The position numbers were made by a program, and so were the translations under genes. 21,288 nt of DNA from a virus. This document shows, piece after piece, positions 2,238-19,986 of the stretch. Each line of letters starts with the position of its first letter. The first letter of the stretch is position 1. Location: IMG/VR virus record IMGVR_UViG_3300022747_000236, positions 1-21,288 of that record; one strand, written 5' to 3'. The notes under the pieces are model-generated. The model saw only the letters and a program-made list of their open reading frames with translations. It was not told where the DNA came from and did not search any database.

Positions 2238-2803
2238 GTTGCATCCATGGACGATTCCAGCCATTTCATCTTGGTCATGTTGACTACCTGCAAGCCGCTC
2301 TGGCTCAATGGGAGTCGCTCGTGATCGGCATTGCCGCACCGACGCCCGTGCCACTGAGCTTCCCCGGGGTTGAACACAGAAATCGCGCCTCTGCGAATCC
2401 GCTGACTTACCTCGAACGAACGGTGTTGATCCGGGCATGCTGCCGCGAACTTGGCATCTCGGACAAACGCATCGAGTTCTCGCCATTTCCGATCGATGAT
2501 CCGGGCATACTGCAGCACTACATCGGCAAGTCGTTGACGTGCGCGACTACGCGGCTTTACGCGTGGAACGACGAAAAAATTCGACGACTCAAAAATGAAG
2601 GCTACGCAGTAGTCGTGCTAGAGCAATGCGAGAAAAAGCCGTTCGATGGAACTGCAATTCGTCGCCTCTTGGCAGACGGCGACACTTCGTGGAAGTCCAT
2701 GGTCCTGCCCGCGGCTGCACACTTGCTGACATCTTGGGACATCCCTAATCGCATCCGAGACAGTGAAGCGGCAGAAGGCACCAATCCGAAAATTACTCTG
2801 TGA
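2210..2803 (+). CDS. NadM-type nicotinamide-nucleotide adenylyltransferase-like protein
   Basis: The 197-residue protein opens with IGCIHGRFQPFHLGHVDYL (about 9-27), the nucleotidyltransferase HxGH signature in the form GRFQPFHLGH typical of archaeal-type NadM enzymes, which join NMN and ATP to make NAD. A NPLTYLER segment matches the NP(F/L)T..ER stretch of NadM, and near the C-terminus GTAIRRLLADGD matches the (S)GTxIR motif that contacts ATP phosphates. Length fits the single-domain family. ATG 2210 was chosen because AAGAGAG lies just upstream; the frame itself extends back to GTG 2186. The gene overlaps the membrane-protein gene by 28 bases. Bifunctional NadM-Nudix fusions are known in bacteria, which makes the Nudix-like neighbour suggestive. 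It could be a housekeeping salvage enzyme or, in this context, an NAD-resynthesis part of a defence system. Confidence 0.8.
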   Translation: MEFQNISSIGCIHGRFQPFHLGHVDYLQAALAQWESLVIGIAAPTPVPLSFPGVEHRNRASANPLTYLERTVLIRACCRELGISDKRIEFSPFPIDDPGILQHYIGKSLTCATTRLYAWNDEKIRRLKNEGYAVVVLEQCEKKPFDGTAIRRLLADGDTSWKSMVLPAAAHLLTSWDIPNRIRDSEAAEGTNPKITL

Positions 2804-2819
2804 GTGCACCATTTCGGCA

Positions 2820-3111
2820 TCCTACTGAGGCCGACCAGCGGGACACCTTGGCCGCAGGTGCATGTATGCCCCATATTCGTTGGAATGGTCACCACATCAC
2901 CGGGACGGATGTCTTGCACAAGATTGCCTTCTTGCTGCACACGTCCGCAGCCCGCAGTGATAACCAGAATCTGGCCAGCAGGATGGGTGTGCCAGTCAAT
3001 GCGTGCGCCTGGCTTGAAAGTTACCCTGGTGCAACCGGCCTTATCAAACCCAAGACGTGATTGATTGCCATGTGACTGCGGATGAAGGCGATCACCCCGG
3101 AGTCGTCGCAT
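2820..3111 (-). pseudogene. Truncated cupin-domain protein remnant
   Basis: The minus-strand frame beginning at 3111 encodes a clear cupin core: RVTFKPGARIDWHTHPAGQ, then VITAGCGRVQQEG and IRPGDVVTIPTNMGH. These match the WHTHP metal-binding motif and the GCGxxQxEG and RPGDVVxxPPxxxH segments of small single-domain cupins. The usual N-terminal lead of about 40 residues is missing, and after NMGH the conserved C-terminal HWHGA-type motif and tail are replaced by unrelated sequence that runs antisense into the adenylyltransferase gene. It therefore appears truncated at both ends. The left end (about 2810-2870) probably marks a recombination junction of the upstream cargo. The end given is approximate. 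Confidence 0.6.
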
Positions 3112-3663: not shown

Positions 3664-5025
3664 ATGACCTACGATTCGCCTCGCTTCCGCGCAATGGACG
3701 ACGCTTTATTAGCGCTGGGTGTGTCGCCAACAGCCGCGCTCTACCTTGATAGATGTCAGGTCGACACGCCGAGCCCTTTGGTTAGAAAAGTCTGGGATAT
3801 CGTCAACAAGATAAGAGGCCCTGTTGGCAAGGTTGTCGATTTTGGTGCGGGTGATGCCCGCTTTGCAAAATATGGTCACTACAAGTCATACGTGGGATAC
3901 GAGATTGATCCCTCTAGATGCTCCCTGAAGAATCTGCCTGGGCATGCGGAGGTAGTAAATGCCTGTGCATTCTCTGAAGACATTTGTGATGCGAGCTTGT
4001 CGATCGGCAATCCGCCCTATGTTCGAAATCAAGATCTGCCTGAAGGCTGGAGACAAAAAGCTGCGGCAAAAATTCAACAGCGAATTGGAGTGAAGGTATC
4101 TGGTCTTGCCAACGCTTGGCAGTATTTCTTTCTGCTGTCATTGGCGAGCACCGCAGAGGATGGTTTGGTTGCCTTGGTCATACCCTACGAGTGGGTGTCT
4201 AGACCATCCTCAGAAGCCTTGCGCGAGTACATTAAAAAATGTGGCTGGAATGTAGATGTCTACCGTTTGGGCGACAAGACATTTGACCGTGTCCTTACTA
4301 CTTGTTCGATAACCATCGTCGACAAGAAGGCACGGGAAGGTGTCTGGCACTACTACCGCGAAAACGAAGACGAGAGCTTTTCGCTAATGCGCGCTCTAAC
4401 GGGCAGCAACCGCAAGCTGCTGTCATACGATCGCTCAAAGAAGGCCTTGATACGTGCAAAACGCGGACTAAGTCCAGGTACACAGACCTACCTCACGCTG
4501 ACTGAGGGGGAACGAGCAAGATGTGGCTTGAAAATTGGTACAGATGTAGTCCACTGCGTCACTAGCCTGAAGTCTATCTCCAACGAAACAGAGCTTCTTG
4601 ATGAAGCTACTTTTCAGCGAGATTTTATTGATGCAGGAAAAAAATGCTGGCTGATAAGGACTGACAAAAAACCATCGGTCAAGCTGCAGCGTTATTTGGA
4701 CAGCGTACCAGCCAAAGGAAGGCAAACAAGTACATGTACTAAACGCGACGTCTGGTGGGCCTTCACTATGCCCCAAAAACCAGCACTTCTCATGGCCACT
4801 GGGTTTAGGGTGCGCCCCAAAGTAGTTCGCAATGAGGTCGGCGCGATGGCACTCGGAGGGGTATGTGGTATTTACGGTACAAGTGACGCAAAAACCACTA
4901 AAAAAATTGCTCAATTTCTTCGCAGCGAAGACTATAAAGGGCGCGTTGTTCCGCACGCAAATGGCCTACTTAAATTAGAAATCAACCAAATCAACTCGTT
5001 GCTTAACTCGATGACCGAATCGTGA
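3664..5025 (+). CDS. Adenine-N6 DNA methyltransferase, TaqI/Eco57I-like
   Basis: The 453-residue protein has the class I S-adenosylmethionine fold with motif I VVDFGAGDARF (57-67), an acidic residue ending strand 2 (YEID, E80) and the catalytic motif IV IGNPPYVRNQ (114-123). The order motif I then NPPY then a C-terminal target-recognition region is the gamma class of adenine-N6 methyltransferases, and NPPYVR is typical of the TaqI/Eco57I group. Residues from about 250 onward should choose the DNA site. No fused nuclease domain and no endonuclease gene are evident, so this is either a solitary methylase or the self-marking part of a larger defence operon. Its stop overlaps the next gene by four bases (GTGA), so translation of the two is probably coupled. 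Function as a methylase is secure; recognition site unknown. Confidence 0.85.
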   Translation: MTYDSPRFRAMDDALLALGVSPTAALYLDRCQVDTPSPLVRKVWDIVNKIRGPVGKVVDFGAGDARFAKYGHYKSYVGYEIDPSRCSLKNLPGHAEVVNACAFSEDICDASLSIGNPPYVRNQDLPEGWRQKAAAKIQQRIGVKVSGLANAWQYFFLLSLASTAEDGLVALVIPYEWVSRPSSEALREYIKKCGWNVDVYRLGDKTFDRVLTTCSITIVDKKAREGVWHYYRENEDESFSLMRALTGSNRKLLSYDRSKKALIRAKRGLSPGTQTYLTLTEGERARCGLKIGTDVVHCVTSLKSISNETELLDEATFQRDFIDAGKKCWLIRTDKKPSVKLQRYLDSVPAKGRQTSTCTKRDVWWAFTMPQKPALLMATGFRVRPKVVRNEVGAMALGGVCGIYGTSDAKTTKKIAQFLRSEDYKGRVVPHANGLLKLEINQINSLLNSMTES

Positions 5026-7286
5026 AAACAGCCCTACCCACCACAACCTCATCAAATCCTATTCTCGACTCTGGGGAAGAATCCTTCACTATTGAAAGCC
5101 GCATTATTCGGGAATTTGGTGAGCGCTTAGTTAAACACCCTGAGGTAGCGTTGCTTGAACTGGTAAAGAACGCGTATGACGCCGATTCCCCATCGTGTAC
5201 CGTTGCCCACAATTACCCCGAGCACATAACCGTTACCGATACCGGTTGCGGAATGACGTTAAAAGAATTCCAAACAGGTTGGATGCGGATCGGTACAAGC
5301 TCGAAAGAATCCAAAGCAACCAGTAATAAGTTCAAGCGACCGATATCTGGAGAGAAGGGGATTGGACGGTTCGCTGTGCGCTACTTAGGTCAGCATTTAG
5401 AGTTAAAAACTACAGCCTATGACACCGCTCGAAAGTGCAATACAACATTGATTGCAAAATTCGATTGGCCTCAATTTGATCTCAATGAAGACCTAGGAAC
5501 AGTCAAAGTACCCTACAAATTACACAGGGCATCAGATGACACCCCACTCGGAACAATTCTGCGTATCACTCAGCTGAGATCAAGCACAGAGAATATTGAT
5601 TTTAAGCAGGTACAGACAGCATCTCTTGGGTTGCTATCCCCGTACCAAGTTTTGCTTCGAAAAAATGAGAAAGACGATCTTCTTGACTTGCCAGATCCCC
5701 CCCAAGGCTTAGATACTGGATTTAATCTTGTCATTTACTCCCAAGATGAAGATGAAGAGAAAGAGGAGTCGGTAGCGGAGAAGATACTTGAAAATTATGT
5801 CTTCCGCTGCATAGTCTCTGTACGAGGTGGCCGTTTGGCGCTTCGCCTGTATCGGCGGGGCGAGCGCAAAGCATGGTTAAAAATCAATGACGTATATGAA
5901 AATACGTTTGACCAAGCCTACGCCGATATCAGATTTTTTCCGGCTCGAAAAGGCACATTTACTGCCATGCCAGTTGATGGCCGCGAAGCTCGTGCCTGGG
6001 TGAAAAATCATTCTGGTGTTGCGGTCTTTGATCGTGACTTCCGCGTTTTACCATATGGCACTTCGGGTGACGATTGGTTGAGGTTAGCTGCGGACGCGTC
6101 GCGAAATGAGCGCAATCCAGTGTCAAGTCTTGCACGGCGACATTTCCCAATGGATGAAGAAACTCAGCGATCCACAGCGTTGAACTACATGCTCCGCCTG
6201 CCACACCCAAGCCAGCTAGTCGGGGCCGTACAAGTATTTGGGGTTCGCAGCGAGGAGAAACAAGGAGATATAGGATTATTTGCAACCGCCGATCGCCAAG
6301 GATTTGTTCAGAACAAGGCGTATCTGCAGCTTGTCGATGCCGTTCGCAGCGCCGTAGAGGCGATTGCGTATGCAGATAGAGAATTGCAGCAAGAAACAGA
6401 GGCACGCGAAATTGCTGATCTTGCAAAAATCGCTCAGAACGAAACAGCGGAAGCCATCGCGCAGGTCCGAACCAACGCTAACCTCACATCTTCTGAGAAA
6501 GCATCACTTGTTAAGCGCCTAGTAAACGTCCAAGAAGCCACCGAACGCCATGATAATTTGGTCAAAAGTCGGGATACGGCCCTTGAAGTAATGAGCCTAT
6601 TGGGCGTAGTCGCCGGATTTATGACTCATGAGTTTGGAACTGCGATTCATGATTTAGAGCGCTCCCACGAGATATTGTCAAAGCTTGGCAAGCGTGATGC
6701 CAGCATCGCCAAACAGGCAACCGCTATTCAAACCCACATTACGGCACTCAAGGATTTTGTCGCGTATTCACAGGGGTACATAAAAGGTACATCCATTGTT
6801 CCTTCCAACCCGCTTCCCGCAGCCCCAAGAATCCGGCAGGTACTGAAGGTATTCGGAAAGTATGCGACTGATCGAAAAATCAATGTGGAAGTCGACGTCG
6901 CAGCGGATGTTAAGACACCCAGAATTCCGATATCCCTTTACAGTGGCATCGTTCTAAATCTCTACACAAATGCACTAAAAGCTGTAACTGCACGCTCCGG
7001 TGCGCCAGCGCGTGAAATTGCAGTTCGAGCGTGGAACGAAAAGAATATTCACAAACTGCAAATATCAGATACAGGCGCTGGTATTCCATCAGCTCTGGCG
7101 GAAAGAATATTCGATCCATTGTTTACAACCACAGAAAGCAATCGTGATCCCCTAGGATCTGGAATGGGGCTTGGGTTGACATTGGTTCGCAAGGGAGCGA
7201 AAGCGTTTGGTGGAACTGTGAATTTAGTAAAACCACCACCGGGGTTTGAAACATGCTTTGAAGTGAAATTTCCAATCGGGGAGTAA
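5022..7286 (+). CDS. Dual GHKL ATPase: MORC/Hsp90-like N-terminus fused to histidine kinase C-terminus
   Basis: The 754-residue protein carries two complete GHKL ATP-binding modules. The N-terminal one has N-box ELVKNAYDAD (46-55), G1 DTGCGM (73-78) and G2 SGEKGIGRF (109-117), the Hsp90/MORC/MutL-like form. The middle (about 130-420) resembles the transducer region of such ATPases. A helical coiled-coil-like stretch (about 440-520) leads to FMTHEFG with H536, a likely phosphoacceptor of a dimerisation domain. The C-terminal module has LNLYTNALKAV (N650), DTGAGI (D683) and GSGMGLGL (about 712-719), a standard histidine kinase domain. No membrane segment is visible, so it should be cytosolic. 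The receiver-domain gene follows two bases after the stop, making a phosphorelay pair likely. Such proteins are usually annotated only as ATP-binding protein. Confidence 0.85.
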   Translation: MKTALPTTTSSNPILDSGEESFTIESRIIREFGERLVKHPEVALLELVKNAYDADSPSCTVAHNYPEHITVTDTGCGMTLKEFQTGWMRIGTSSKESKATSNKFKRPISGEKGIGRFAVRYLGQHLELKTTAYDTARKCNTTLIAKFDWPQFDLNEDLGTVKVPYKLHRASDDTPLGTILRITQLRSSTENIDFKQVQTASLGLLSPYQVLLRKNEKDDLLDLPDPPQGLDTGFNLVIYSQDEDEEKEESVAEKILENYVFRCIVSVRGGRLALRLYRRGERKAWLKINDVYENTFDQAYADIRFFPARKGTFTAMPVDGREARAWVKNHSGVAVFDRDFRVLPYGTSGDDWLRLAADASRNERNPVSSLARRHFPMDEETQRSTALNYMLRLPHPSQLVGAVQVFGVRSEEKQGDIGLFATADRQGFVQNKAYLQLVDAVRSAVEAIAYADRELQQETEAREIADLAKIAQNETAEAIAQVRTNANLTSSEKASLVKRLVNVQEATERHDNLVKSRDTALEVMSLLGVVAGFMTHEFGTAIHDLERSHEILSKLGKRDASIAKQATAIQTHITALKDFVAYSQGYIKGTSIVPSNPLPAAPRIRQVLKVFGKYATDRKINVEVDVAADVKTPRIPISLYSGIVLNLYTNALKAVTARSGAPAREIAVRAWNEKNIHKLQISDTGAGIPSALAERIFDPLFTTTESNRDPLGSGMGLGLTLVRKGAKAFGGTVNLVKPPPGFETCFEVKFPIGE

Positions 7287-7288
7287 AA

Positions 7289-8386
7289 ATGAAGCAGACC
7301 ATACTGCTGATTGACGATAAATCAGAGTTTTTAGCTCCGCTAGCAGAAGCACTGGCGCAGAAACTTGGAGAGACGGCAAATGTTGTACCCTGGGTTCCGA
7401 ACAGTACCGAACGGCCTTTGGAGAAGTTTGAGCAACTTGTACAAGATAACGATGTCAGACTGGTAGTCACTGACTACGATTTGACGCAGCAAGGCCAACT
7501 TGGTTTTTTTGGAGCGACCGTAGTTGATTGGTGTCAGGTCAAAGGCATTCCAGTAGGGGATTTTTCGCGCGGCAATGCTAGCTCGCTTGCAACTGAGCCC
7601 AATCTTTTTGAGCTTAGAGTCCCCATCCAGTCCAACGATGCAGCTGTTGACTTCATTGCTAGTGTATTTCGTGGCTTCATTGAAATCCGTGCCAACATTG
7701 ACAGCAACCCCGTACTACTCAAGCAGAGGAGCCCTGCAGCGGCATTGGCTCTGATGTTAGGGGTTGGGCATTTAGAGAGTCAATTTTCTCAATACGGTAC
7801 CCGCTATGGAGGTGCAAACAGCGCGTTGATTGACAAGTTTGTTGAGACAGCTCATCGAGACGTCACCCCGGATCCATCCCGCAAAGCGACATTGCTTGCG
7901 TACATCATGGGACACTTGCTTCATAACGCTGTGCTGCGCTTTCCGGGACCCATCGTAAGTTCTGAAGCCCTTGCTGCATACCTAGCTGTGAACCAATCCG
8001 ACCAAGAAAAGTACTTGCCGATGTTCGCACCAGCTCTTTTCAAAGGTCCATTTTCCGAACTGGACTCCTACTATTGGACTCATTCTGTGGATGAAGTTCT
8101 CGCTCAGTACGACGAGAAAGTGTCCGAAGACATGCAGTTTGAGAGTACTGGTGAGTACAACAGAATTCGAGTTGAAACTGCGCTGCAAACCACGTTGAAA
8201 CAATCCACAGACTGCCTCCGATGTAACGGAAAAAATGGTGGCTTTTGGTGCCCATTTTCACGCAAAGCTGTATGCCAACGCTCGGATTGTTCAATTGTCT
8301 CCAATGTCTGGATTCCGTCTGGGGCACGATTGGCTCGATTCGAGCGAGACTTCTATGAAGAGTGGGCACCAATTCTGGGAATGTGA
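7289..8386 (+). CDS. Receiver-domain protein with C-terminal Cys cluster (response-regulator-like)
   Basis: The 365-residue protein begins ILLIDDKSEF with the acidic pair D9/D10 and continues to VVTDYDLT with D62 in the position of the phosphorylated aspartate, so the N-terminal ~130 residues are a receiver-like domain. The conserved Thr/Ser and Lys further on are poorly matched (PVGDFSRGN, then FELRVP with Arg for Lys), so it may be an atypical receiver. The middle region is helical with no recognised DNA-binding fold. The C-terminus has a Cys cluster C309-x2-C312-x8-C321-x7-C329-x4-C334 suited to binding zinc. GGGGAG lies upstream of the ATG. Its position right after the kinase gene makes it the expected phosphoryl acceptor; the output of the C-terminal part is unknown. 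Confidence 0.7.
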   Translation: MKQTILLIDDKSEFLAPLAEALAQKLGETANVVPWVPNSTERPLEKFEQLVQDNDVRLVVTDYDLTQQGQLGFFGATVVDWCQVKGIPVGDFSRGNASSLATEPNLFELRVPIQSNDAAVDFIASVFRGFIEIRANIDSNPVLLKQRSPAAALALMLGVGHLESQFSQYGTRYGGANSALIDKFVETAHRDVTPDPSRKATLLAYIMGHLLHNAVLRFPGPIVSSEALAAYLAVNQSDQEKYLPMFAPALFKGPFSELDSYYWTHSVDEVLAQYDEKVSEDMQFESTGEYNRIRVETALQTTLKQSTDCLRCNGKNGGFWCPFSRKAVCQRSDCSIVSNVWIPSGARLARFERDFYEEWAPILGM

Positions 8387-10686: not shown

Positions 10687-12966
10687 TTATGTTTGATCAG
10701 CGGTATGAACGGAAGCGCTTTCGGCAACGCAGGTCACCTCCACCAAATCAGCTCGAGGTTTCACGCTCATGACGCGCGCCATCTGGGCCCAGGTCTGCCC
10801 CACCCCAAATGCAAAGTGCGTTCGCTCCTCACCTCCACCGGTTTGAATTGCAATGCTCGGCGTTTGCTGCAGCACGGCATGTCGTTCAGTAACTCCACGC
10901 GTCACACCAATCGGGTCTGTCACAGAACCATCTACGCGTCTCAAAGCGATGTAGTGATTCGCTCCTGTCTGCCAAGGCAAGCGCTCCGAACAGACCAACA
11001 CCTTGGATGCACCATCCCATGACAAAGCCTCACCACTGACACCCCAGCTGGGCATGTCATGACTGATGGCCACCAAGTCCCCATAGGTCGGAATCAGCCC
11101 TTCAAGCTCTGTCCTAAAAGTGATGATTCGTCTGCGATACCGATTGGCCGCCGCGATGTACCTGCCCTCGCGCATCGCTTGAGACTTGTCGGTACAACCA
11201 AAGAGCTTCAAGCGAGCAGGCTTAGAGAGGGCCGAACCCGCAAGGGCCACCGTGACTTCATCAGGCTTCCAGCTCTTGGGGTTGAAGTATTCAACCGTGA
11301 CCGCATCCGCTGTTGCATCTCCCGGCATCACGTACTGAATCTTCAAACTACTGCGCACGATGTTTCGGGTGGAGAACAAGGCCACAGGGATGGTCTTGGG
11401 TTCATCTCGAACAATGCGCACAATGCCGCCTTGCAGGAACGGAAGCGCACGTCCAGCTCTGGCAATCTGCCCCATGGCGTCCCAAACCGTTAGGTTCTGG
11501 TCAAACACGCCATTGAACGTATCACCACGCGCAGACCACACCCCATCCAGTCGAGCGAGTGCATTCAAGTCAATCTTTGCATCAGGCAACCCTGCCCCGT
11601 AACTCGAGCGCGCTGCATCTGCAAATGCCCAAGCAATCGAGCGAGTAGCTTGAGGTGAACTCCATCCTGTGGTCTTTGACCAAACAGGGAGCTTTCGAGT
11701 GACTAGGCAGTTCACCAAACGAGATGATCTCTGCGACAAGTTATCCGTTGCGCGCATGCGCAATGCCAGCAAGGTCAAGTCCGATGGCAATGATGGATTG
11801 ACCAGATAGCCCTTTGCTTGCCCCCAGCGAAGCTCATGCCCCGCACGGGTACTGGTGTCTTTGATGTCTAGCCTTTGAACACGCACCTCGTAGCGACCGG
11901 CACCCACTCCATATTTGTAGGTTCTACGTTGAGCTGTATTGGTAGCTGCCGAGTAGGACTCATCGGCAAGATGAAGCCATCCGGAGGTGGCATCACCATC
12001 GTCATTGATGGTTCTTGCCTCAACCTGCCATTGAACGGTTCGACTATCCAGCGTTCCACCATCAGTCGCGTAGTACAAGCCTCGCATCATTACAACGTCA
12101 ATGCCAATCTGATTAACTTGGGTCCCCGCAGGGTTGAGCGCAAAGGGACCAATGATGCTGCCGCCCGTATCAGCGACGGCAATTAACTCCTGCCCCGTCA
12201 CCTCAGCCGCTGTCACCACATCGTTGTTGAACAAGGTGTTTTGACCACCCGGCTCGATGACCTGTGCCTGCACTTCTTCAAACGATGCAATGGGGCTGTC
12301 ATCAATCGACAGCTCTTCAAAATGGAAATGCCCAATGCCAATCACATGGAGCTGGTGCAGGTACTCTTCGTTGTTGACGTACTCCGTATAGGGCATCGCT
12401 GCCAAATCCGGATAAATCAGATGCTGCCCATACACAACAGGAATCGGCTGGGACAGGCGCCCATAGTTGCCACGCGCCTGCAGTGAGTAAGTTGGACTTG
12501 GTGAAGATGAGCTGGCTGTGGCATTGGGCAGGCTCTGATTTGGTAACGGCACCAAGGCATTCACGATGATGGAACCTGTCACAGCAATTGCGGTTGATGC
12601 CACCGAAGTCGCTACTGCGCCTGAATATCCGAAGGATGCGGCCAGCTCAGCGCCATAGGCGTTCGCCACAACCAAGACGGCAATCATCAGAACAGTCTGC
12701 AACGGGTTCTTACCCCCGCCTCCACCTCCTTGTGGCAGCGACACCAGTGCAATGACATCTCCAGCCTCAATGAGGGTCACGCAGCGTTCAGCCATTAGCA
12801 CTGGCTTGCCGTTCTTGAGTACCAGCGTTGGTTGCTCAAAAACGACCTGCTCTTGGTGCATCCATTGGCTGATGGTTGGACTACCCTGAACGTGATGGAC
12901 ATCACGCTCTTGGGGATCGAATGGGTTTCGGAGCCAAACTACGACACCATCATTGCTGCTTGGCAT
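10687..12966 (-). CDS. Tail tip protein, lambda J-like (short form)
   Basis: The 759-residue protein follows the NlpC/P60 peptidase gene and has the organisation of lambda-type tail tip proteins: an N-terminal ~78-residue domain, a run of six glycines (80-85), a hydrophobic stretch (about 90-145), then the conserved beta-rich region with YGRLSQPIPVVYGQ and later VWDAMGQIARAGRALPFLQG. It should close the distal tail and contact the host surface or membrane. It is much shorter than lambda J (1132 residues) and ends soon after the conserved core, so the receptor-binding extension seems absent. No separate lambda I-like gene lies between it and the peptidase; the N-terminal domain before the glycine run may fill that role. 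Its start overlaps the upstream gene by 28 bases, with GAGGTG upstream. Confidence 0.88.
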   Translation of the reverse strand: MPSSNDGVVVWLRNPFDPQERDVHHVQGSPTISQWMHQEQVVFEQPTLVLKNGKPVLMAERCVTLIEAGDVIALVSLPQGGGGGGKNPLQTVLMIAVLVVANAYGAELAASFGYSGAVATSVASTAIAVTGSIIVNALVPLPNQSLPNATASSSSPSPTYSLQARGNYGRLSQPIPVVYGQHLIYPDLAAMPYTEYVNNEEYLHQLHVIGIGHFHFEELSIDDSPIASFEEVQAQVIEPGGQNTLFNNDVVTAAEVTGQELIAVADTGGSIIGPFALNPAGTQVNQIGIDVVMMRGLYYATDGGTLDSRTVQWQVEARTINDDGDATSGWLHLADESYSAATNTAQRRTYKYGVGAGRYEVRVQRLDIKDTSTRAGHELRWGQAKGYLVNPSLPSDLTLLALRMRATDNLSQRSSRLVNCLVTRKLPVWSKTTGWSSPQATRSIAWAFADAARSSYGAGLPDAKIDLNALARLDGVWSARGDTFNGVFDQNLTVWDAMGQIARAGRALPFLQGGIVRIVRDEPKTIPVALFSTRNIVRSSLKIQYVMPGDATADAVTVEYFNPKSWKPDEVTVALAGSALSKPARLKLFGCTDKSQAMREGRYIAAANRYRRRIITFRTELEGLIPTYGDLVAISHDMPSWGVSGEALSWDGASKVLVCSERLPWQTGANHYIALRRVDGSVTDPIGVTRGVTERHAVLQQTPSIAIQTGGGEERTHFAFGVGQTWAQMARVMSVKPRADLVEVTCVAESASVHTADQT

Positions 12967-13382
12967 GGCTCACCTCGAAATGCATAAAACCCCTCGACTC
13001 GCCAACCATGACGGTCAAGCGCCCACAAGTCCTGAAACACCACCCCCACACCTTGCGCGCAATGCAGCACGCCTCCACCATCGATGTCTAGCCAAACACC
13101 GACATGCACCGGATATCTGGACTGACGCATCAGCACGGCATCCCCATGTTTTGGCGTTGGCACACGCTGCCAGCGTTTTCGCTCGGGGTGTTCGTTGAAT
13201 GTCTTGAGCACCACACGCAGATCCATTGCATCCACTGGGATAAGCGGAAGCTCCCGTCCGAAGTGATTTCTCTGCACCCATAAAAAAAGGCCCCAGCAGT
13301 CAAATGACTCGGGGCCTCGTCCGCCTGCTATCCATGGGCGACCTATGTATCGGTGCGCCCAGTAGCCGTTTGTTGGTTTCAT
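12939..13382 (-). CDS. NlpC/P60 tail assembly peptidase (lambda K-like)
   Basis: The 147-residue protein carries the NlpC/P60 catalytic pattern: FDCWGL with Cys29, then PVHVGVWLD with His93 and a polar third position near His107. Such phage proteins are cell-wall peptidases placed at the tail tip or used in tail assembly. The gene sits between a DUF1833-type protein and the J-like gene, the lambda L-K-J order. The Shine-Dalgarno sequence is weak (GGGTAA). A terminator-like hairpin with a T7 run lies inside the coding sequence over the catalytic Cys codon. Function call is firm; exact role in tail assembly versus injection is open. Confidence 0.87.
   Translation of the reverse strand: MKPTNGYWAHRYIGRPWIAGGRGPESFDCWGLFLWVQRNHFGRELPLIPVDAMDLRVVLKTFNEHPERKRWQRVPTPKHGDAVLMRQSRYPVHVGVWLDIDGGGVLHCAQGVGVVFQDLWALDRHGWRVEGFYAFRGEPCQAAMMVS
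13282..13317 (-). terminator. Terminator-like hairpin inside the NlpC/P60 gene
   Basis: On the minus strand, AGGCCCC (13317-13311) pairs with GGGGCCT (13294-13288), and inner AGTCA and TGACT arms pair around a two-base loop. TTTTTTT follows directly (13288-13282). The structure has the features of an intrinsic terminator but lies within a coding sequence, over the codons for GPESFDCWGLFL. It could attenuate transcription of the J-like gene, or it may simply result from codon needs. Structure seen, function unproven. Confidence 0.4.
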
Positions 13383-13392
13383 GACTTACCCA

Positions 13393-13935
13393 TCACCGGG
13401 CAAGTCCCGGAAACTCTGTCGAGGTGTACAACCGACCTGGAAACGCTTTATTTCCGATATCGACCATGCGCGCCCTTGCGGTCACTCGCATCACATCAGC
13501 CTCCACCTCAGTCAGTACCAACGTGATGGGAGGATCCATCTGCGGGCCCTCGACATCGTTTGACAAGTACGGGCGATAAGTGACTTCGATGGAAGCTTCT
13601 GACTCAGACGCAGCATCAAGGTGTTTGACGATCTCGCGAGAGACGTTATCCAAGGTCAGCACGACCTCAGGAACAGGTGCAATGTCCACAGGCGGCAAAT
13701 CCAAATCAAACCCCATGGCTACAAACCTCACTGTCTGGTTTGGATTCAACGGTGCCGAAGCTTCGAGACGTGCAAAGAGGTCTTGTTGATCTCGCACCAC
13801 CCGGATAGCTGTTGTCACGCCCGACTCGTTTTTAAAGTCAGGGTGACGCAGCTCTAAGGTGTGCAGGATCACCACATCTGAAGGTGAACTCGCGTACGCC
13901 TCTTTCAACGCATCACTCAACGTCACATCAGGCAT
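13393..13935 (-). CDS. Minor tail protein, DUF1833-like (lambda L position)
   Basis: The 180-residue protein resembles the DUF1833 family of phage proteins: an opening MPDVTLSDALKEAYASSPSD with ILHTLELRHPDF, then VRFVAMGFDLDLPP, VLTLDNVSREI and a YRPYLSN stretch. This beta-rich family regularly precedes NlpC/P60 and J-like genes and takes the place of lambda L, a tail tip component. It overlaps the radical SAM gene by eight bases, so the two are translated from the same message. Function as a structural minor tail protein is by position and family. Confidence 0.8.
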   Translation of the reverse strand: MPDVTLSDALKEAYASSPSDVVILHTLELRHPDFKNESGVTTAIRVVRDQQDLFARLEASAPLNPNQTVRFVAMGFDLDLPPVDIAPVPEVVLTLDNVSREIVKHLDAASESEASIEVTYRPYLSNDVEGPQMDPPITLVLTEVEADVMRVTARARMVDIGNKAFPGRLYTSTEFPGLAR

Positions 13936-15277
13936 GCTCTACCTTGATCGGGATGACACGACGCTCTTTCGCTTCGGAGTGCTCACTGACCAATCCAAAG
14001 ATATCTCGCCGCTCCTGCGGGAAATCGCCCTCGATGTAGAACGGGAAGCAGCCAGTAAGGAACTCAATGCCTGCGGCTAAAAACGGCACGTTGTCGGCAT
14101 AGGAGGCATCGCACCCTGCTGTCCACAAGGGGCCGTCCAAAAACATGCATGAGCCTTTGCACAACTGAAGCACAGGACAATTTGAACAACCGTCTCGCTT
14201 GCTCCAATGCGTGGCGCTGCGCATCTTGACTGCTTGAAGCTGAGAGATGTGCCCAATCTTGTGTGACTCACCGTTTGGAGCTACAGCGGCTGCGCTCACG
14301 TTCTGGCAAGTCAACACATTGCCGTTTAGATCAACAACGAGGTTGTCGGTGCGGTCCATGCCGCACTTTTGACCCAACGCACTGGCAGGACGGCCTTGGG
14401 CCACAGACTCCACAAAGTCCATGATCTTCTTGCGACCGATATCAAAACTGGTCACCGCACCTGCACGCAACTCCTTGAACGCAAAGGCACTGAAAGTGAC
14501 GCGCTCCCCTGAAGTCTGAAACGTGGAAGCCAATCCACCCTCGTCATACGGATCAATGAAAGCGCCCTCGCCAATGACGACATCCTCACCAAAGCGTTCG
14601 CGCAGCCATGCCTGCACATGCGCGCGACTTGGATTGTTGGCGTGAATCATGGCGTTGATGCTGATTCGACCCTCAGGCTTCAAGCGCGCGTACAGATCAA
14701 AGATGGCAGCTCGCTTTTGTGGGTCATCCAAAGGATCAGCACCGCGTGCGTGATAACCAGGGCCATCATGCGACAACCCCACTGAGAATCCCAAACGGTC
14801 AATCCATGCGTTCTTGTCTGCATCTAACAGACTGCCATTGGTAATCATGCTGAACTGAGCCTTGGGGTACAACGCCCTCAACCGCTCAGCCAGTGGTTTT
14901 AAGGTCTTCCAGTAAACCAGCGGTTCGCCACCCCAGAACTCAATGCGCTCTGGAGGTTCAATCAGCGCATCGACCAATGAGCTCAAAAACGCATCAACGT
15001 CTTCTGGATTGGTTTGATCTGCATGCGGCACAAACCGTTGTGAGCAGTAGGTGCAGGCGTAATTGCAAAGCAGGCCAAGACTGATCTTGAGCACTCGCAC
15101 ATTGCCCTTGCGACCGGGTTGATCTTTGGCAACCACCGTCGCATCACGCCAAGCGCGCGCTTTGACTGGAACGACCGACTGGCCATTGCTCCAAGCAAGG
15201 CTAGAAGTTTGGTTGTTGTAGACCAACGAGTCTTCTGTGCCGTCAAGCTTGATCACATAGATGCGGAACTCAGCCAT
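13928..15277 (-). CDS. Radical SAM/SPASM peptide or protein maturase
   Basis: The 449-residue protein has the radical SAM cluster motif C71-x3-C75-x2-C78, the GGEP motif at 116-119 and a barrel core (MITNGSLL, SVGLSHDGPG). Its C-terminal SPASM domain matches the seven-Cys pattern exactly: C305, G319-x4-C324, then C364-x2-C367-x5-C373-x3-C377 and C389, enough for two auxiliary iron-sulfur clusters. SPASM enzymes of this shape cross-link or otherwise modify ribosomal peptides, or mature sulfatases. It stands inside a tail operon, overlapping the oxygenase-like gene upstream and the minor tail gene downstream by eight bases each, with GGAG seven bases before its ATG. The Cys-rich fibre protein encoded three genes upstream is the obvious candidate substrate. 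The enzyme class is secure; the substrate is inference. Confidence 0.92.
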   Translation of the reverse strand: MAEFRIYVIKLDGTEDSLVYNNQTSSLAWSNGQSVVPVKARAWRDATVVAKDQPGRKGNVRVLKISLGLLCNYACTYCSQRFVPHADQTNPEDVDAFLSSLVDALIEPPERIEFWGGEPLVYWKTLKPLAERLRALYPKAQFSMITNGSLLDADKNAWIDRLGFSVGLSHDGPGYHARGADPLDDPQKRAAIFDLYARLKPEGRISINAMIHANNPSRAHVQAWLRERFGEDVVIGEGAFIDPYDEGGLASTFQTSGERVTFSAFAFKELRAGAVTSFDIGRKKIMDFVESVAQGRPASALGQKCGMDRTDNLVVDLNGNVLTCQNVSAAAVAPNGESHKIGHISQLQAVKMRSATHWSKRDGCSNCPVLQLCKGSCMFLDGPLWTAGCDASYADNVPFLAAGIEFLTGCFPFYIEGDFPQERRDIFGLVSEHSEAKERRVIPIKVEHA

Positions 15278-15881
15278 GGATGCGCTCCACTTTGATATTG
15301 AAAAGAATATTCATGAACGGTTGCTCCCCAAAGTAGGGTTTCTGAAAATGAATCGCTCTGGCATCAAAGGCGATCAACAGACCGCGATGAGGTTTGATCC
15401 AGAACTTGGATGGGGACTCCCAAGGCATGAGCAACCCAGCAAAACCGGACGAGCGCCAGGCGGGGTTACAGATGGCGAAGCCATTGGGTGCGAATTGATT
15501 GATCTGTGGCATCAGGCCAAGCGAACCATCTAGCTCGGGACCGAACGGAAAGTAGATGGCCTGCACATCACATTCGTCTTCGTCGTTGTGCGGCATGATT
15601 TCGACGCCATTGGCGCGAACCACTTCACGCCCTTGCACATGAACCACTCGCCCGCTTGGACCAAGCAGTTCCTGCACTTTGCACACAACTGTCGTCTGCA
15701 ACGTCTGGCAGCGCGGTGAATGCCCGTCAAAGATGTTGTGGTCTTTGCGTTCCCAGATTTGATCGCCTGTTTGCATGCGCACGTTCAATTGCAAGAGCTC
15801 TTCATAGAGCCCCTGATCAAACGCCGTATCCATGCCAAGTGACCAGATCCCTGTTTTAAGAGGAAAAAGGTCAAGGATCAT
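15270..15881 (-). CDS. Putative 2-oxoglutarate/Fe(II) oxygenase-like protein
   Basis: The 203-residue protein has an HxD pair (IMPHND, H98 and D100) and a distal His178 in AFDARAIHFQ, about 80 residues apart, as in the double-stranded beta-helix Fe(II) oxygenases that hydroxylate amino-acid side chains. The strand pattern AIYFPFG, GLLIAFDA and FMNILFNIKV supports that fold. The Arg or Lys that usually binds 2-oxoglutarate shortly after the distal His is not in the expected form, so activity or cosubstrate could differ. The ATG overlaps the upstream stop (ATGA), and the gene overlaps the radical SAM gene by eight bases. In context it may hydroxylate a tail protein. The family call is moderate; cupin-like or non-catalytic alternatives remain. 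Confidence 0.55.
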   Translation of the reverse strand: MILDLFPLKTGIWSLGMDTAFDQGLYEELLQLNVRMQTGDQIWERKDHNIFDGHSPRCQTLQTTVVCKVQELLGPSGRVVHVQGREVVRANGVEIMPHNDEDECDVQAIYFPFGPELDGSLGLMPQINQFAPNGFAICNPAWRSSGFAGLLMPWESPSKFWIKPHRGLLIAFDARAIHFQKPYFGEQPFMNILFNIKVERIHG

Positions 15882-16720
15882 GGAACGCTCACCACCAAGT
15901 CATCCGTACCACTGAAGTACTTGAAGCCGACTTTGATCTTGATTTGGGTGCCAGAGCACAGACCGTCTGTTTTGAAAACAGTGCTCCCCGCTCCATCAAC
16001 AGTCATCACGCGACGCTCGCGCAAGAAACCAGCGGTTGAGTCCAAATAGATCTCCGCTTCATGATGGGCAATGGGCTGGCCATCTGACTCTTCCAGTCTG
16101 AAATTGACAATCAGCCCCTCACCCGATTCAACACTGGGTGTGAACCGAACCACAGGTAAAGACTCCATGCGCGCCAAAGCCAATGTCACACAAGGCTCGG
16201 TCTCCAAGTCCCCTTCTGTTTTAACGAGCACAGGATCGAACACATTGAAACCAAGCAACCAGTCTGGGAGTTCCGATGTTTTGAAGGGAACCAAGATGTG
16301 ACCAATGGGGTGAGCCTGAACCACGGTGGCGTGATAAGCCTGTGCATCCATCTTGCTCGCCAAAGTGGCGACATACAGGTTGGGTGTGTGATCAAAGAGA
16401 CTTTCTCGCGCGCCCTCTGATGCCCATCCCTTCGGGGCGTACAACATGAACGAAGCATGGTCGCCAAACTCAGCATGTGATTTGAATGTTTCCAAGTCCA
16501 AAGAGCGCTGGTAGGCGCCTTCATCAAAAACGCCCCAATCTCCCCGCCACTCGGTGATCAGTGATTCATCAAAGAACTTGCCACCGCTGTCATGATCCTG
16601 TGTTGGGTCGCCCACAAAATCTCGCTGCATGACATTTCGAACTCGGAACGAGAGCACCGAACCATCTAAGGTGACATCCAGCGCAAAGGGTGTATTTTTT
16701 GTTGTGAGGTGAAGTTTCAT
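15878..16720 (-). CDS. Phage tail-associated protein of unknown function
   Basis: This 280-residue protein is not recognised. The N-terminal half is acidic with several Trp, including TEWRGDWGVFDEGAYQRS. The C-terminal ~85 residues look like an Ig-like beta sandwich (GLIVNFRLEESDGQP, EIYLDSTAGF, KIKVGFKYF). ATG 16720 was chosen because GGGGGAG lies just upstream; the frame continues to 16807, which would overlap the fibre-tip gene. It lies 10 bases after that gene and overlaps the oxygenase-like gene by four bases, so it may be a second structural part of the fibre, an assembly chaperone or a substrate-presenting partner for the modifying enzymes. Confidence 0.7.
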   Translation of the reverse strand: MKLHLTTKNTPFALDVTLDGSVLSFRVRNVMQRDFVGDPTQDHDSGGKFFDESLITEWRGDWGVFDEGAYQRSLDLETFKSHAEFGDHASFMLYAPKGWASEGARESLFDHTPNLYVATLASKMDAQAYHATVVQAHPIGHILVPFKTSELPDWLLGFNVFDPVLVKTEGDLETEPCVTLALARMESLPVVRFTPSVESGEGLIVNFRLEESDGQPIAHHEAEIYLDSTAGFLRERRVMTVDGAGSTVFKTDGLCSGTQIKIKVGFKYFSGTDDLVVSVP

Positions 16721-16730
16721 GTTCTCCCCC

Positions 16731-17330
16731 TTAGCAGCAGTTGCAATCGCAATTGCAGTTGTACCGAGTTCCATATGCGCCAAGCCGCAAGTTGCCACCG
16801 TTATCAAACAAGGTGATCAAGTTGTAGTAGTTGTACGGAGCTTGATCGCCGCAGTTGTAACAGTTGTCCGTGATTTGGCAATTGGGGGCGCCTTGCCAAC
16901 CAGAATTCGGTGTGTTGTTTACACGTACGCAGTTGCTCACGTTGTTGAAGAAGCAGTCATGCAACCAGCCGTAGTTGGCCGTCCACATCTGGCCACCGTT
17001 ATTCATGTACATGTCCCAGTTGCCATCAGATTTCAGAAAACCCAATAGCCCTTGGTTGTGATGCAAATACCGCGTACCCCAGTCTGTATCAACTAGATCG
17101 ATGTAGTTCGCTGTGGATGCGACTTGCAGACGTGAAACAGACAAGGTTCCCGTCATCGTATCACCTGCCTTGTTGACCTTGGTCGACAAGTCCAGCGCAG
17201 CAGTACCTGCGGAAGTGACTTGGCCTTTGCTGTTGACCGTTAGCACGGGAATTTGCGAAGCAGACCCATAGGTTCCTGCAGAGACACCCGAGTCTTTCAG
17301 GCCCTCAGGTGGGATTTGGGTAATAGGCAC
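16731..17330 (-). CDS. Tail fibre tip-like protein with Asn/Asp-Cys-rich C-terminus; candidate modification substrate
   Basis: The 199-residue protein starts like a phage fibre (VSAGTYGSASQIPVLTVNSKG, about 16-36, and VNKAGDTMTGTLSV, about 52-65), and continues with a GFLKSDGNWDMYMNNGG segment common in fibre tips. All ten cysteines are in the last 74 residues: 126, 134, 151, 157, 160, 192, 194, 196, 198 and 199. Each except the last directly follows Asn or Asp, and the chain ends YNCNCDCNCC. Start GTG 17330 is preceded by AAGGAGG with five-base spacing. It follows the long fibre gene by 25 bases and precedes the genes for the unknown protein, oxygenase-like protein and radical SAM enzyme. 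The terminal tract resembles a radical-SAM-modified peptide core joined to a fibre. Disulfides or metal binding are alternatives. Confidence 0.82.
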   Translation of the reverse strand: MPITQIPPEGLKDSGVSAGTYGSASQIPVLTVNSKGQVTSAGTAALDLSTKVNKAGDTMTGTLSVSRLQVASTANYIDLVDTDWGTRYLHHNQGLLGFLKSDGNWDMYMNNGGQMWTANYGWLHDCFFNNVSNCVRVNNTPNSGWQGAPNCQITDNCYNCGDQAPYNYYNLITLFDNGGNLRLGAYGTRYNCNCDCNCC

Positions 17331-17355: not shown

Positions 17356-19986
17356 CTACAGATACCGAACAACAATGCGCACCCCGTTTAAGGGCGCAGA
17401 TGTGAATTTCAAGGTGGCACCGCTATTGACCAACACATACGCGTCCAACGAGTCTTGAATGACGTTGGCAACTGTCACCATGAGCTTGGTCACACTGGCC
17501 GCTGCCGTGGTGAGGGCAAAGTCAGTGGCACTGCCGTTTCCCGTGAACACCTGCGGCGCAACGCTCGAACCTTGCGCGCTGGCTGCCGCAGCTTGTGCCT
17601 GCGTGGCATAGGTCTGGGCATTGGTTGCTGAGGTGGAAGAAGCAGTGGCACTTGTTGCAGCGCTGGTGGCTGAGGTTGATGCCTGAGAGGCCGATGTACT
17701 CGCTGCACTTGCCGAACTTGCCGCACCAGTTGCAGAGCTACTGGCTTCTGTTGCCTTAGTTGCGGCTGTCGCCGCAGACGTTGCTGCATCAGAAGCTTTG
17801 GTCGTCGCCGTTGAGGCAGAGGTTGCTGATGTGGTTGCGGAAGTCGCCGCGGCAAATGCAGACGAAGCTGCATTCGTTGCCGAGGTCGATGCTTCGCCTG
17901 CTTTGCTAGTGGCAGTTGTCGCAGAGCTTGCAGCCGCAGTGGCAGAACCAGAAGCGTCAGACGCCTTGGTCGTGGCGGTTGTGGCTGAGGCTGCAGCAGA
18001 AGTCGCAGATCCAGAAGCATCCGTTGCTTTTTGGATTGCCACAGCACTACTCGCAGCGGCCGCCCCTGCGTGGTACTTAGCGGAGTACTCCGTAGAGCCT
18101 GAGACCGTACCAGTCGTCTTCGTTGCCCACTCTTGTGCAGCAGCGGCGCCCGACTGCGCTTCCTTATCCAAATACCGAACACTGATAAGAACACCATTGC
18201 CCGGCGCTGAGCTGAATCGAAGCGTGGTCGTTGTGGGCGTGGTGTACGCATCCACTGGTGCTTGCTGTACTCCTGCAACAGTGACCAACAAAGCACCGGG
18301 ATAAGAAACCCCGCGACTGATCGTGAAGTCTGTCGCCACACCATTGCCCGTGAAAGTCTCCGCAGGAATGATGGTGTTGGTCGTCACCGCTGCGGCTGAA
18401 CCAGCCGCTTGTGCTGCCCAGTACTTGGCTGAGTAACCGGTTCCGTCAACTGTCGCCGCCGTCTTCTCCGCCCAATCCGCCGCTTTGGTGGCTTGCGTTT
18501 GAGCGGAAGACAGAGAACTCGCTGCACTTGTTGCGCTGGTTGAAGCAGCACTCGCAGACGAAGCAGATGCGTTTGCACTGGCCAAAGCCTCTGAGGCCTT
18601 GGTCGTTGCCGTCGTTGCAGAACCTGCTGCGGCACTCGCGGATGCAGCAGCACTCGTTGCACTAGAACCTGCATTGGTCGCAGAGCTTGCAGCAGCCGTG
18701 GCACTTGCAGACGCGTCACTTGCTTTGGTGCTGGCCGTGTTTGCAGAGCCAGACGCCGCCGTCGAAGATGCGCCTGCGTTGGTGGCAGATGTCGCCGCTG
18801 CAGTGGCCTGCGTTGTTGCCGTTGTCGCTGACGATGCAGCACTACTGGCCGACGCTGCACTCTCTGAGGCTTTGGTCGTAGAAGTACTGGCAGAGCCTGC
18901 CGCAGCCGTGGCACTTGCCGCTGCATCACTCGCTTTTTGAGTGGCAGTCGCCGCAGATGCCGTGATGGACTGGGCGTAATACTTGGCCGAGTAATCAGTG
19001 CCACTGACAGGCGCACTTGTTTTGGTCGCCCAGTCTTGCGCGGTATTGGCGCTCGTTGCGGCTGCACTTGCTGAACCAGAAGCACTCGATGCACTACTGG
19101 ATGCATCGGTTGCTTTGGACGCTGCGGTGGTTGCTGAGCTGGCAGAGGCTGTGGCAGTTGCAGCCGCACTATTGGCAGAACCAGAAGCTGCACTGGCTTG
19201 TGTCGTTGCAGTTGCAGCAGAAGCTGCTGCATTGCCCGCAGACGTAGCCGCGTCACTGGCTTTGGTACTGGATGTGGTCGCGGAAGTGGCAGAGGCTGAA
19301 GCACTCGTTGCAGCCGCAGAAGCTGAAGCACTAGATGCGCTTGCACTGCTGGCCGCTGCCTGCGCTTGGTATTTCGCCGAATATTCAGTTCCCTGCACAG
19401 GCCCCGTGGTCTTGGTCGCCCAATCCATCGCAGCGGCTGCACCAGTCTGGCTTTCTTTATCCAGCATCCGAGCCGTGATGCTCACCCCATTCAAGGGAGC
19501 CGTCACAAACCTCAGCGTTTTGGAGTCAAACAGCGAATAAGCATCCACAGGTGTTTGCAGCACACTGGCAACAGTCACTTGCAATGCACCGGGATGACCC
19601 ACCGCATAGTCAAGCGCGAAGTCTGTCTGCGTCCCGTTGCCCACCCATGTCTTGGTTGGAATCACCACGGCACTGGTTGCCGCATCGGCCCTAGCCTTAA
19701 CCTCAGCCAGCGTTGCCGCTGCGTCTGCTGCTTTAGACGTGGACAGATTGGCACTGCTCGTGGAAATGCCAGCTTGCCTTGTGGCCTCACCCACCTGAGC
19801 TGTGAGCTCTGTGCGAGACGCAGCCAAATCAAGTTCAACCTGATGGATAGCCTTGGCCACCGTTTTGACAGGACCACCCTCGGTGACCACATCAGTCTGG
19901 CTGTTGCCATGCACCACTTGGTGCAACAAGGACACATCAACCTCAGCCTTATTGACTGTCGCTTCTAACCGTTCTTGCAGGTTCAT
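17356..19986 (-). CDS. Long modular phage tail fibre protein
   Basis: The 876-residue protein opens with a helical ~100-residue segment, then carries three copies of a beta-rich domain of about 70 residues (about 108-178, 537-607 and 809-876) with the pattern GNGxxTDF, PGALxVTV, PVDAY and APxNGVxIxxR. Between them are long Ala/Ser/Thr-rich stretches (KASDAxxSA-type heptads) punctuated by four WATKT-type modules ending in YSAKY (near 190, 330, 510 and 625). Such repeats form rod-like trimeric shafts in tail fibres. The third domain ends the protein directly, so the tip is probably supplied by the next gene product. ATG 19986 lies just after a terminator U-tract, and its Shine-Dalgarno sequence is poor (GAGC). 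Confidence 0.88.
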   Translation of the reverse strand: MNLQERLEATVNKAEVDVSLLHQVVHGNSQTDVVTEGGPVKTVAKAIHQVELDLAASRTELTAQVGEATRQAGISTSSANLSTSKAADAAATLAEVKARADAATSAVVIPTKTWVGNGTQTDFALDYAVGHPGALQVTVASVLQTPVDAYSLFDSKTLRFVTAPLNGVSITARMLDKESQTGAAAAMDWATKTTGPVQGTEYSAKYQAQAAASSASASSASASAAATSASASATSATTSSTKASDAATSAGNAAASAATATTQASAASGSANSAAATATASASSATTAASKATDASSSASSASGSASAAATSANTAQDWATKTSAPVSGTDYSAKYYAQSITASAATATQKASDAAASATAAAGSASTSTTKASESAASASSAASSATTATTQATAAATSATNAGASSTAASGSANTASTKASDASASATAAASSATNAGSSATSAAASASAAAGSATTATTKASEALASANASASSASAASTSATSAASSLSSAQTQATKAADWAEKTAATVDGTGYSAKYWAAQAAGSAAAVTTNTIIPAETFTGNGVATDFTISRGVSYPGALLVTVAGVQQAPVDAYTTPTTTTLRFSSAPGNGVLISVRYLDKEAQSGAAAAQEWATKTTGTVSGSTEYSAKYHAGAAAASSAVAIQKATDASGSATSAAASATTATTKASDASGSATAAASSATTATSKAGEASTSATNAASSAFAAATSATTSATSASTATTKASDAATSAATAATKATEASSSATGAASSASAASTSASQASTSATSAATSATASSTSATNAQTYATQAQAAAASAQGSSVAPQVFTGNGSATDFALTTAAASVTKLMVTVANVIQDSLDAYVLVNSGATLKFTSAPLNGVRIVVRYL
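17570..19370 (-). repeat. Low-complexity Ala/Ser/Thr-coding repeat tracts in the fibre gene
   Basis: Runs of GCN, AGC/TCN and ACN codons recur with a roughly 21- to 42-base rhythm, coding for KASDASGSAT-like units, interrupted by the conserved domain and YSAKY modules. The repetition gives long open frames on the opposite strand that are not genes. Such tracts commonly expand or shrink by recombination, altering shaft length. Confidence 0.8.

Follow-up and report, generated by a model that had tools for sequence, protein, structure and literature searches.

Asn/Asp-Cys pairs at viral fibre tips are linked to a radical SAM/SPASM gene whose product probably modifies them

Analysis of a viral fibre protein and its relatives confirmed that cysteine in these fibre tips is regularly preceded by asparagine or aspartate ([ND]C). 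Strings of such Asn-Cys pairs (NC runs) almost always accompany a nearby radical SAM (rSAM) gene, so the phage probably rewires the tip that touches the host after it has been synthesized. We consider it likely, if well short of certain, that a RiPP-like cassette makes and then modifies the distal fibre tip, and that the radical SAM enzyme acts on the [Asn/Asp]-Cys pairs, most likely by forming thioethers.

The window, that is, the whole stretch of 21,288 nucleotides that was analysed, is a viral contig. In order of transcription, its minus strand encodes the end of a tape-measure protein, a virion protein, P0005, P0001, P0004, P0002, P0003, a DUF1833 protein, an NlpC/P60 protein and protein J. 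The main features are:

17356..19986, minus strand: fibre stalk P0005, 876 aa, rich in Ala, Ser and Thr, encoded immediately upstream of the tip protein (matches to tail-fibre PHROGs, 1e-5 to 1e-6)
16731..17330, minus strand: fibre-tip protein P0001, 199 aa, GTG start (translation, phrog_36881, homologues on viral contigs)
15878..16720, minus strand: P0004, 280 aa, conserved partner between tip and rSAM genes (cluster 0, 69 members in that position)
15270..15881, minus strand: 2-oxoglutarate/Fe(II) (2OG) oxygenase P0002, 203 aa, proposed accessory modifying enzyme (H98-x-D100 ... H178, AlphaFold, Foldseek)
13928..15277, minus strand: radical SAM/SPASM enzyme P0003, 449 aa, proposed tip maturase (Pfam, NCBIfam, PHROGs, invariant Cys, AlphaFold, Foldseek)
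10687..13935, minus strand: tail-module genes downstream of the cassette, for a DUF1833 minor tail protein, an NlpC/P60 protein and the central tail protein J (Pfam, PHROGs)

In P0001, a central fibre domain (residues ~42-125) precedes a tip rich in Asn-Cys (126-199). It matched phrog_36881 at 1.6e-10 and several tail-fibre PHROGs weakly, and the tape-measure, DUF1833, NlpC and J genes flank it, as expected of a phage tail fibre. About 75 homologues were found on viral contigs. P0004, for which a Pfam search gave no family above cut-off, is proposed to be an adaptor or assembly protein.

The ten cysteines of P0001 (positions 126, 134, 151, 157, 160, 192, 194, 196, 198 and 199) are preceded, in order, by D, N, N, N, N, N, N, D, N and C, so that the list in the initial annotation, with nine cysteines after Asn or Asp and the last after Cys, agrees exactly with the translation. 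They fall into the following sites:

16953..16958, minus strand: D125-C126, a coincidental pair, usually WLHDY (Cys in 5/20, Asp in 20/20 homologues)
16929..16934, minus strand: N133-C134 (both residues in 20/20 close homologues)
16878..16883, minus strand: N150-C151 (homologue alignment)
16851..16865, minus strand: N156-C157 and N159-C160, in TDNCYNCGD (homologue alignment)
16734..16760, minus strand: terminal run N191-C-N-C-D-C-N-C-C199 (YNCNCDCNCC), forming the very end of the protein (kept in 20/20 close homologues, with N, D, A or G before Cys)

The same annotation had called the pattern far from chance. This was borne out by shuffling residues 119-199 with their composition kept (17 N, 5 D and 10 C of 81; Asn 21%): nine or more [ND]C pairs were obtained in 2e-5 of the shuffles, which ruled out composition alone as the cause. 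For the five interior cysteines alone (residues 101-188), every one of which follows Asn or Asp, the shuffle probability was 9e-4. The pairs are encoded by a mixture of AAC, AAT, GAC and GAT with TGC and TGT, and this variation excludes a simple DNA repeat as the source of the pattern.

Scoring the residue before each cysteine in homologous tips had been proposed as a check, and it was carried out site by site on 20 aligned tips, closely related but distinct, in which Asn/Asp did not vary freely where cysteine was kept. One part of the original claim, that every non-terminal cysteine obeys the rule, had to be given up. At the D125-C126 site, 15 of the 20 close homologues read WLHDYFF, and this pair was placed outside the rule because its aspartate is kept with or without the cysteine. 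(The D125 codon, 16956-16958, lies just beyond the interval 16731-16955 first assigned to the pattern.) At the remaining sites with a preceding Asn or Asp, that residue is near-invariant across the 20 tips; the only substitutions are alanine, twice, and glycine, once, all in the terminal run, where D, N, A and once G interchange before Cys. At site 157 the two residues are lost jointly, NC being replaced by DY or DF in 8 of the 20 homologues.

The rule extends to fibres that are otherwise dissimilar, the motif recurring in about 25 sequence clusters. Among 675 cysteines in 80 tips chosen as representatives at 90% identity, the preceding residue was N in 79%, D in 7%, A in 4% and C in 4%, against a background of 2.5% for N and 4.0% for D in other long open reading frames of the same contigs (6,024 cases). 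The residue after cysteine is unconstrained (G, A, Y, N, T and others, none dominant). True exceptions before cysteine were A, Q, G, R and C, mostly within the run or at its end. Cysteines with no further cysteine within three residues were preceded by Asn in 90% of 167 cases, and in 81% within a stricter set of 25 representatives at 45% identity. Because isolated cysteines also follow Asn, the pairing is no by-product of alternation within the run, and strand alternation alone was ruled out as its cause.

The scaffolds of unrelated fibres end in an NC run, and in some of them a further domain follows. In the Achromobacter phage JWF, the run NCNCDCNCNCS leads directly into Cys308 of its fibre (P0011 of that genome), which is Cys1 of a Hint domain (PF05203, 3e-12); in phage 2-1 a Hint domain likewise comes straight after the run, with its first cysteine adjoining it. 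In two other loci (L201 and L276) the next domain after the run is an S74 chaperone domain (PF13884), which starts at the serine after FW. Hint and S74-type domains cleave themselves, and their removal would leave the run as the C-terminus of the mature protein, at the far end of the fibre, in these cases as well; the Hint arrangement suggests that self-cleavage, or activation of the C-terminus, takes place right behind the run. Fibres joining an Asn-Cys run to a Hint domain were noted at L167:6844-8295 (+) and L168:6853-8295 (+), the JWF and 2-1 genes, and at L289:1343-3355 (-) in a Rhodospirillales genome, which has the same plan with a weak Hint score.

The linkage between NC runs and the radical SAM gene was examined in both directions. 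In the forward direction, viral contigs were scanned at the DNA level for NCNC[ND]CNC without regard to homology, which gave at least 113 loci; in at least 82 of them the match was an in-frame run within 25 residues of the end of an open reading frame. Among the matches listed, 77 of the 82 in-frame C-terminal runs share a contig with a radical SAM/SPASM gene of the window's family, counts that describe linkage rather than a census, as the loci are partly redundant and come non-randomly from metagenomic collections. The gene lay within the fetched stretch for 68 of these 77 listed runs, elsewhere on the contig for six, and in another locus of the same contig for three (L171, L197 and L226, with the genes of L113, L003 and L026, respectively). 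All five listed runs that lack the gene (L216, L239, L241, L249 and L271) are less than 1.3 kb from a contig end, so that among the matches listed every run that could be assessed (77/77) has it. Four further runs among those matches precede an S74 domain, and the gene was found with all four. No such gene accompanied the roughly 23 out-of-frame or low-complexity matches listed, with the sole exception of L177, itself a truncated tip. A simple repeat or translation artefact was thus rejected on two grounds, the varied codons and the absence of the gene from matches of this kind.

In the reverse direction, 58 loci were selected by their radical SAM gene, each with at least 4 kb of upstream sequence. 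A strict NC tail was found within 5 kb in 51 of the 58, and 6-7 kb upstream in three more (L111, L130 and L137); another three (L142, L151 and L156) have weaker tails, such as TNCACACEC. L139 was the only one of the 58 with no NC tail. Radical SAM genes of this kind are rare in phages generally: 3 of 50,697 phage records gave a strong match, and these represent two phages, JWF and 2-1, in both of which the tip region of the fibre ends in an NCNCDCNC-type run. The fibre of Pseudomonas phage Itty13 and its relatives on contigs have the same central domain, with neither an NC run nor such a radical SAM gene, and end in a chaperone-like domain free of cysteine. Homologues of the Itty13 fibre, intended as a broad negative control, yielded only four further loci. 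In bacterial genomes the same pattern consisted mostly of low-complexity AATTGC repeats, with a few true tips (L289, L345, L347 and L380) and one independent pairing of a peptide with a radical SAM gene. This pairing, L395:209-1462 (+) of an Erysipelotrichaceae genome, is a short peptide frame ending NCNCDCNCDCSSDD (also given as CDCWTGNNCNCDCNCDCSSDD), followed after about 25 bp by a radical SAM gene that is MoaA/PqqE-like and belongs to a different family. It looks like an independent, uncharacterised RiPP-type pair, and a peptide of this type beside a different enzyme is an independent hint that NC-type runs are radical SAM substrates.

P0003 was assigned to the radical SAM superfamily with a SPASM domain by PF04055 (9.4e-8) and by TIGR04085, above its cut-off. 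Its CxxxCxxC cysteines (C71, C75 and C78) and SPASM cysteines (C305, C324, C364, C367, C373, C377 and C389) do not vary among 41-42 relatives, the most distant at 33% identity. By profile it belongs to phrog_1802 (2.6e-58), a radical SAM family placed in the category 'other' and annotated without substrate or function. The AlphaFold model (pLDDT 91) matched CteB, anSME, ChlB, TigE and SkfB in Foldseek. The nearest NCBIfam model for this family is usually the ranthipeptide maturase PapB (NF047865), on which P0003 scored 60.3 bits and its relatives 50-86 bits against a cut-off of 340. The match to TIGR03906 (QhpD) was 1.7e-10, below the family cut-off; the L195 enzyme gave 1e-17. P0003 thus resembles both thioether-forming enzymes (CteB, PapB and QhpD) and cysteine-oxidising ones (anSME), at scores far below every curated maturase cut-off. 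Ranthipeptide and sactipeptide maturases act on a short leader-bearing precursor recognised through an RRE. At this locus no such precursor was found, the candidate substrate being a fibre protein of about 200-500 aa, and no winged helix was seen in the P0003 model, whose N-terminal ~60 residues are all beta.

P0002 has the double-stranded beta-helix and HxD...H triad of the 2OG-Fe(II) superfamily. H98 and H178 are invariant in 21 relatives and D100 varies in distant members. Its model (pLDDT 88) matched 3bvc, 2rg4, a Pseudomonas P4H (4j25) and PHD2 at 1e-6 to 1e-5. P0002 itself had no Pfam match; hits to PF13759 or PF13640 were obtained for its relatives and for genes at the corresponding position elsewhere. 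Against the 27 bits required for PF13759 (2OG-FeII_Oxy_5), two relatives in its own cluster scored 21.5 and 26.5 bits and another cluster 40 bits. The genes between tip and radical SAM enzyme mostly encode P0004-like proteins and several groups of 2OG oxygenases, and a 2OG enzyme was present at 92 of 116 loci. The minimal cassettes (L195, L201, L202 and L149) consist of tip and radical SAM genes only, adjoining or nearly so. Since the 2OG enzyme is missing from them, it is the radical SAM enzyme that is constantly paired with the tip, the oxygenase being an accessory. The earlier suggestion that the pattern suits both neighbouring enzymes therefore holds strongly for the radical SAM enzyme, and for the oxygenase only in this accessory sense.

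Other genes were noted in or near these cassettes. A second radical SAM gene lies between the tip and the main one in L208, L209, L235 and L025. Possible desaturase-like (histidine-box) genes and an ATP-grasp-like gene were seen by eye in the interval between tip and radical SAM genes at L111 and L130 (upstream of the latter gene) and at L165:6778-7986 (+). Five loci (L176, L194, L243, L221 and L275) encode small proteins with TCQGCQ-type repeats and a terminal NC run, for example NCNCDCNCNCSDDS; in the repeats Gln follows Cys, and one or two divergent radical SAM genes are nearby. In Thermus phage Cumys (L169:6982-10212, +), a tail-module protein with His-X-Asp repeats (HSDTHSDTH..) directly precedes a radical SAM gene and a DUF483 gene, and may be a fibre modified in an analogous way at a different motif.

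We infer that the tip is the substrate of the radical SAM enzyme, that by analogy the bond formed would be a thioether, and that the modified tip would serve in adsorption. In the proposed scheme, the tip protein carries [Asn/Asp]-Cys dipeptides towards its end, first a few on their own and then a dense C-terminal run, and the dedicated radical SAM/SPASM enzyme encoded downstream would act on these pairs. The most likely reaction would join the cysteine sulfur to an Asn or Asp carbon, either inside one N-C pair or across adjacent strands or chains of the fibre, and the product would be a rigid, non-reducible tip whose host-facing part has side-chain chemistry not found among the twenty standard amino acids. 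Accessory enzymes, which vary by phage (at least one 2OG oxygenase here and in most relatives, a second radical SAM enzyme in some), would add changes such as hydroxylation. An acceptor in the adjacent Asn/Asp would account for the constraint being confined to position -1. A more specific form of the scheme is offered tentatively and is open to considerable doubt: a dedicated radical SAM enzyme may form adjacent-residue thioethers (thiomorpholinone-like rings) or inter-chain cross-links on (Asn/Asp-Cys)n tips, which exchangeable 2OG, second radical SAM and other enzymes may diversify. If true, this would be a class of virus-encoded protein maturation not described before, and its product would be a receptor-binding tip whose chemistry varies.

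The thioether is favoured as the bond because of four precedents: NxxcB joins Cys to the Asn beta-carbon in the NxxcA thioether (PMC8326336), QhpD cross-links Cys to Asp/Glu within a subunit of a protein (PMC8326336), PapB makes a Cys-Asp link and accepts even adjacent residues, if inefficiently (PMC9413430), and enteropeptins contain a six-membered thiomorpholine ring formed by Cys with N-methylornithine (PMC12395415). The ranthipeptide systems (PapB/freyrasin, CteB/SCIFF and NxxcB/NxxcA) likewise place a radical SAM/SPASM enzyme beside a Cys-rich substrate with Asn/Asp acceptors, and include both the best NCBIfam model and a structural match of P0003; they differ from the present case, which has a full-size fibre substrate without leader or cleavage, a candidate acceptor in the adjacent residue and no recognisable RRE. 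QhpD of quinohemoprotein amine dehydrogenase is also a radical SAM/SPASM enzyme and makes its Cys-Asp/Glu thioethers in a structural subunit instead of a peptide product, but P0003 lies below that family's cut-off and has no quinohemoprotein context. The enteropeptin-type sactipeptide maturase, whose Cys thioether closes a thiomorpholine ring with a neighbouring residue (PMC12395415), is a chemical analogy only, as peptide and motif differ. The lack of a leader precursor, the lack of a visible RRE and the likeness to anSME count against thioether maturation.

Four other explanations were weighed. The alternating NCNC also suits a beta-strand with its cysteines on one face, turned to the trimer core for metal binding or disulfides. 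The tip may accordingly be capped by a metal or iron-sulfur cluster bound by CxCxCxC from three chains, with Asn facing the solvent and the enzymes acting elsewhere. Phage needles often hold iron at their ends, as in the HxH sites of T4 gp37 and the P2 spikes, and Cys-rich CxC motifs bind soft metals; the run lies at just such an end, and the alternating ligand-like residues at the distal tip recall T4 gp37 and P2 gpV, although here they are Cys, not His, and are accompanied by dedicated radical SAM and 2OG enzymes. The metal cap leaves unexplained the Asn before 81-90% of isolated cysteines, and a near-perfect link to a radical SAM gene is not expected of simple metal sites, so that we judge it unlikely as the whole explanation; metal binding in the trimer core, with or without modification, is possible.

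Alternatively, an anSME-like enzyme could convert the cysteine of each N-C pair to formylglycine or another carbonyl, and such a reactive tip could bond to host amines. Structures of anSME are among the best fold and sequence matches of P0003 and have the SPASM architecture in common with it, and the JWF homologue is annotated as an anSME. However, anSME oxidises cysteine to formylglycine at a single site in a CXPXR-type motif, whereas up to 20 cysteines would be involved here; the motif is absent from the P0001 tip, the substrate types differ, and P0003 scored 48.6 bits against the 349 required of the anSME model (sulfatase_rSAM), the best NCBIfam model usually being PapB. Cysteine oxidation thus appears a little less likely than a metal cap.

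A plain disulfide-rich tip, in which cysteines pair within or between chains and Asn precedes them through composition or fold only, is improbable. Extracellular Cys-rich tips are often disulfide-bonded and Asn is locally abundant (21% of residues 119-199), but Asn before Cys exceeds composition (p = 2e-5 in P0001, and also across the 80 tips) and the radical SAM linkage is left unexplained. Of the distinct tips, 42 have an odd and 62 an even number of cysteines, which indicates that simple within-chain pairing is not enforced. Finally, hydroxylation as the main event, with the 2OG oxygenase beta-hydroxylating the Asn or Asp beside each cysteine and the radical SAM enzyme secondary, is very improbable: Asn and Asp are common 2OG targets and 2OG enzymes of several families lie near 92 of the 116 radical SAM genes, but the four minimal cassettes pair a tip with the radical SAM gene and have no such enzyme.

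A literature search, the scope of which excluded most subscription journals and all bioRxiv preprints, returned no description of such a system. If the preferred reading, thioether maturation of the tip, is right, radical SAM chemistry, so far associated chiefly with peptide natural products and with enzyme cofactors, finishes the host-recognising part of a virion, and the substrates of radical SAM maturases widen from peptides to large fibre adhesins. The function-less family phrog_1802 would gain a function, unusual cross-links would be predicted in virions, and new peptide-stapling enzymes acting on a simple N-C tag would become available. An orphan sequence pattern is thereby turned into a testable enzyme-substrate pair that is present in cultured Achromobacter phages, JWF and 2-1.

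Two other parts of the window were noted. Three overlapping or abutting genes at 3664-8386 (+) encode a DNA methylase of the Eco57I type, a protein that has two HATPase domains and weakly matches type II restriction enzyme models, and a 365-aa protein of unknown function, possibly a phage-borne defence or restriction-modification operon. At 2186-3111, a cytidylyltransferase-like gene (+) overlaps a cupin gene (-) on the opposite strand.
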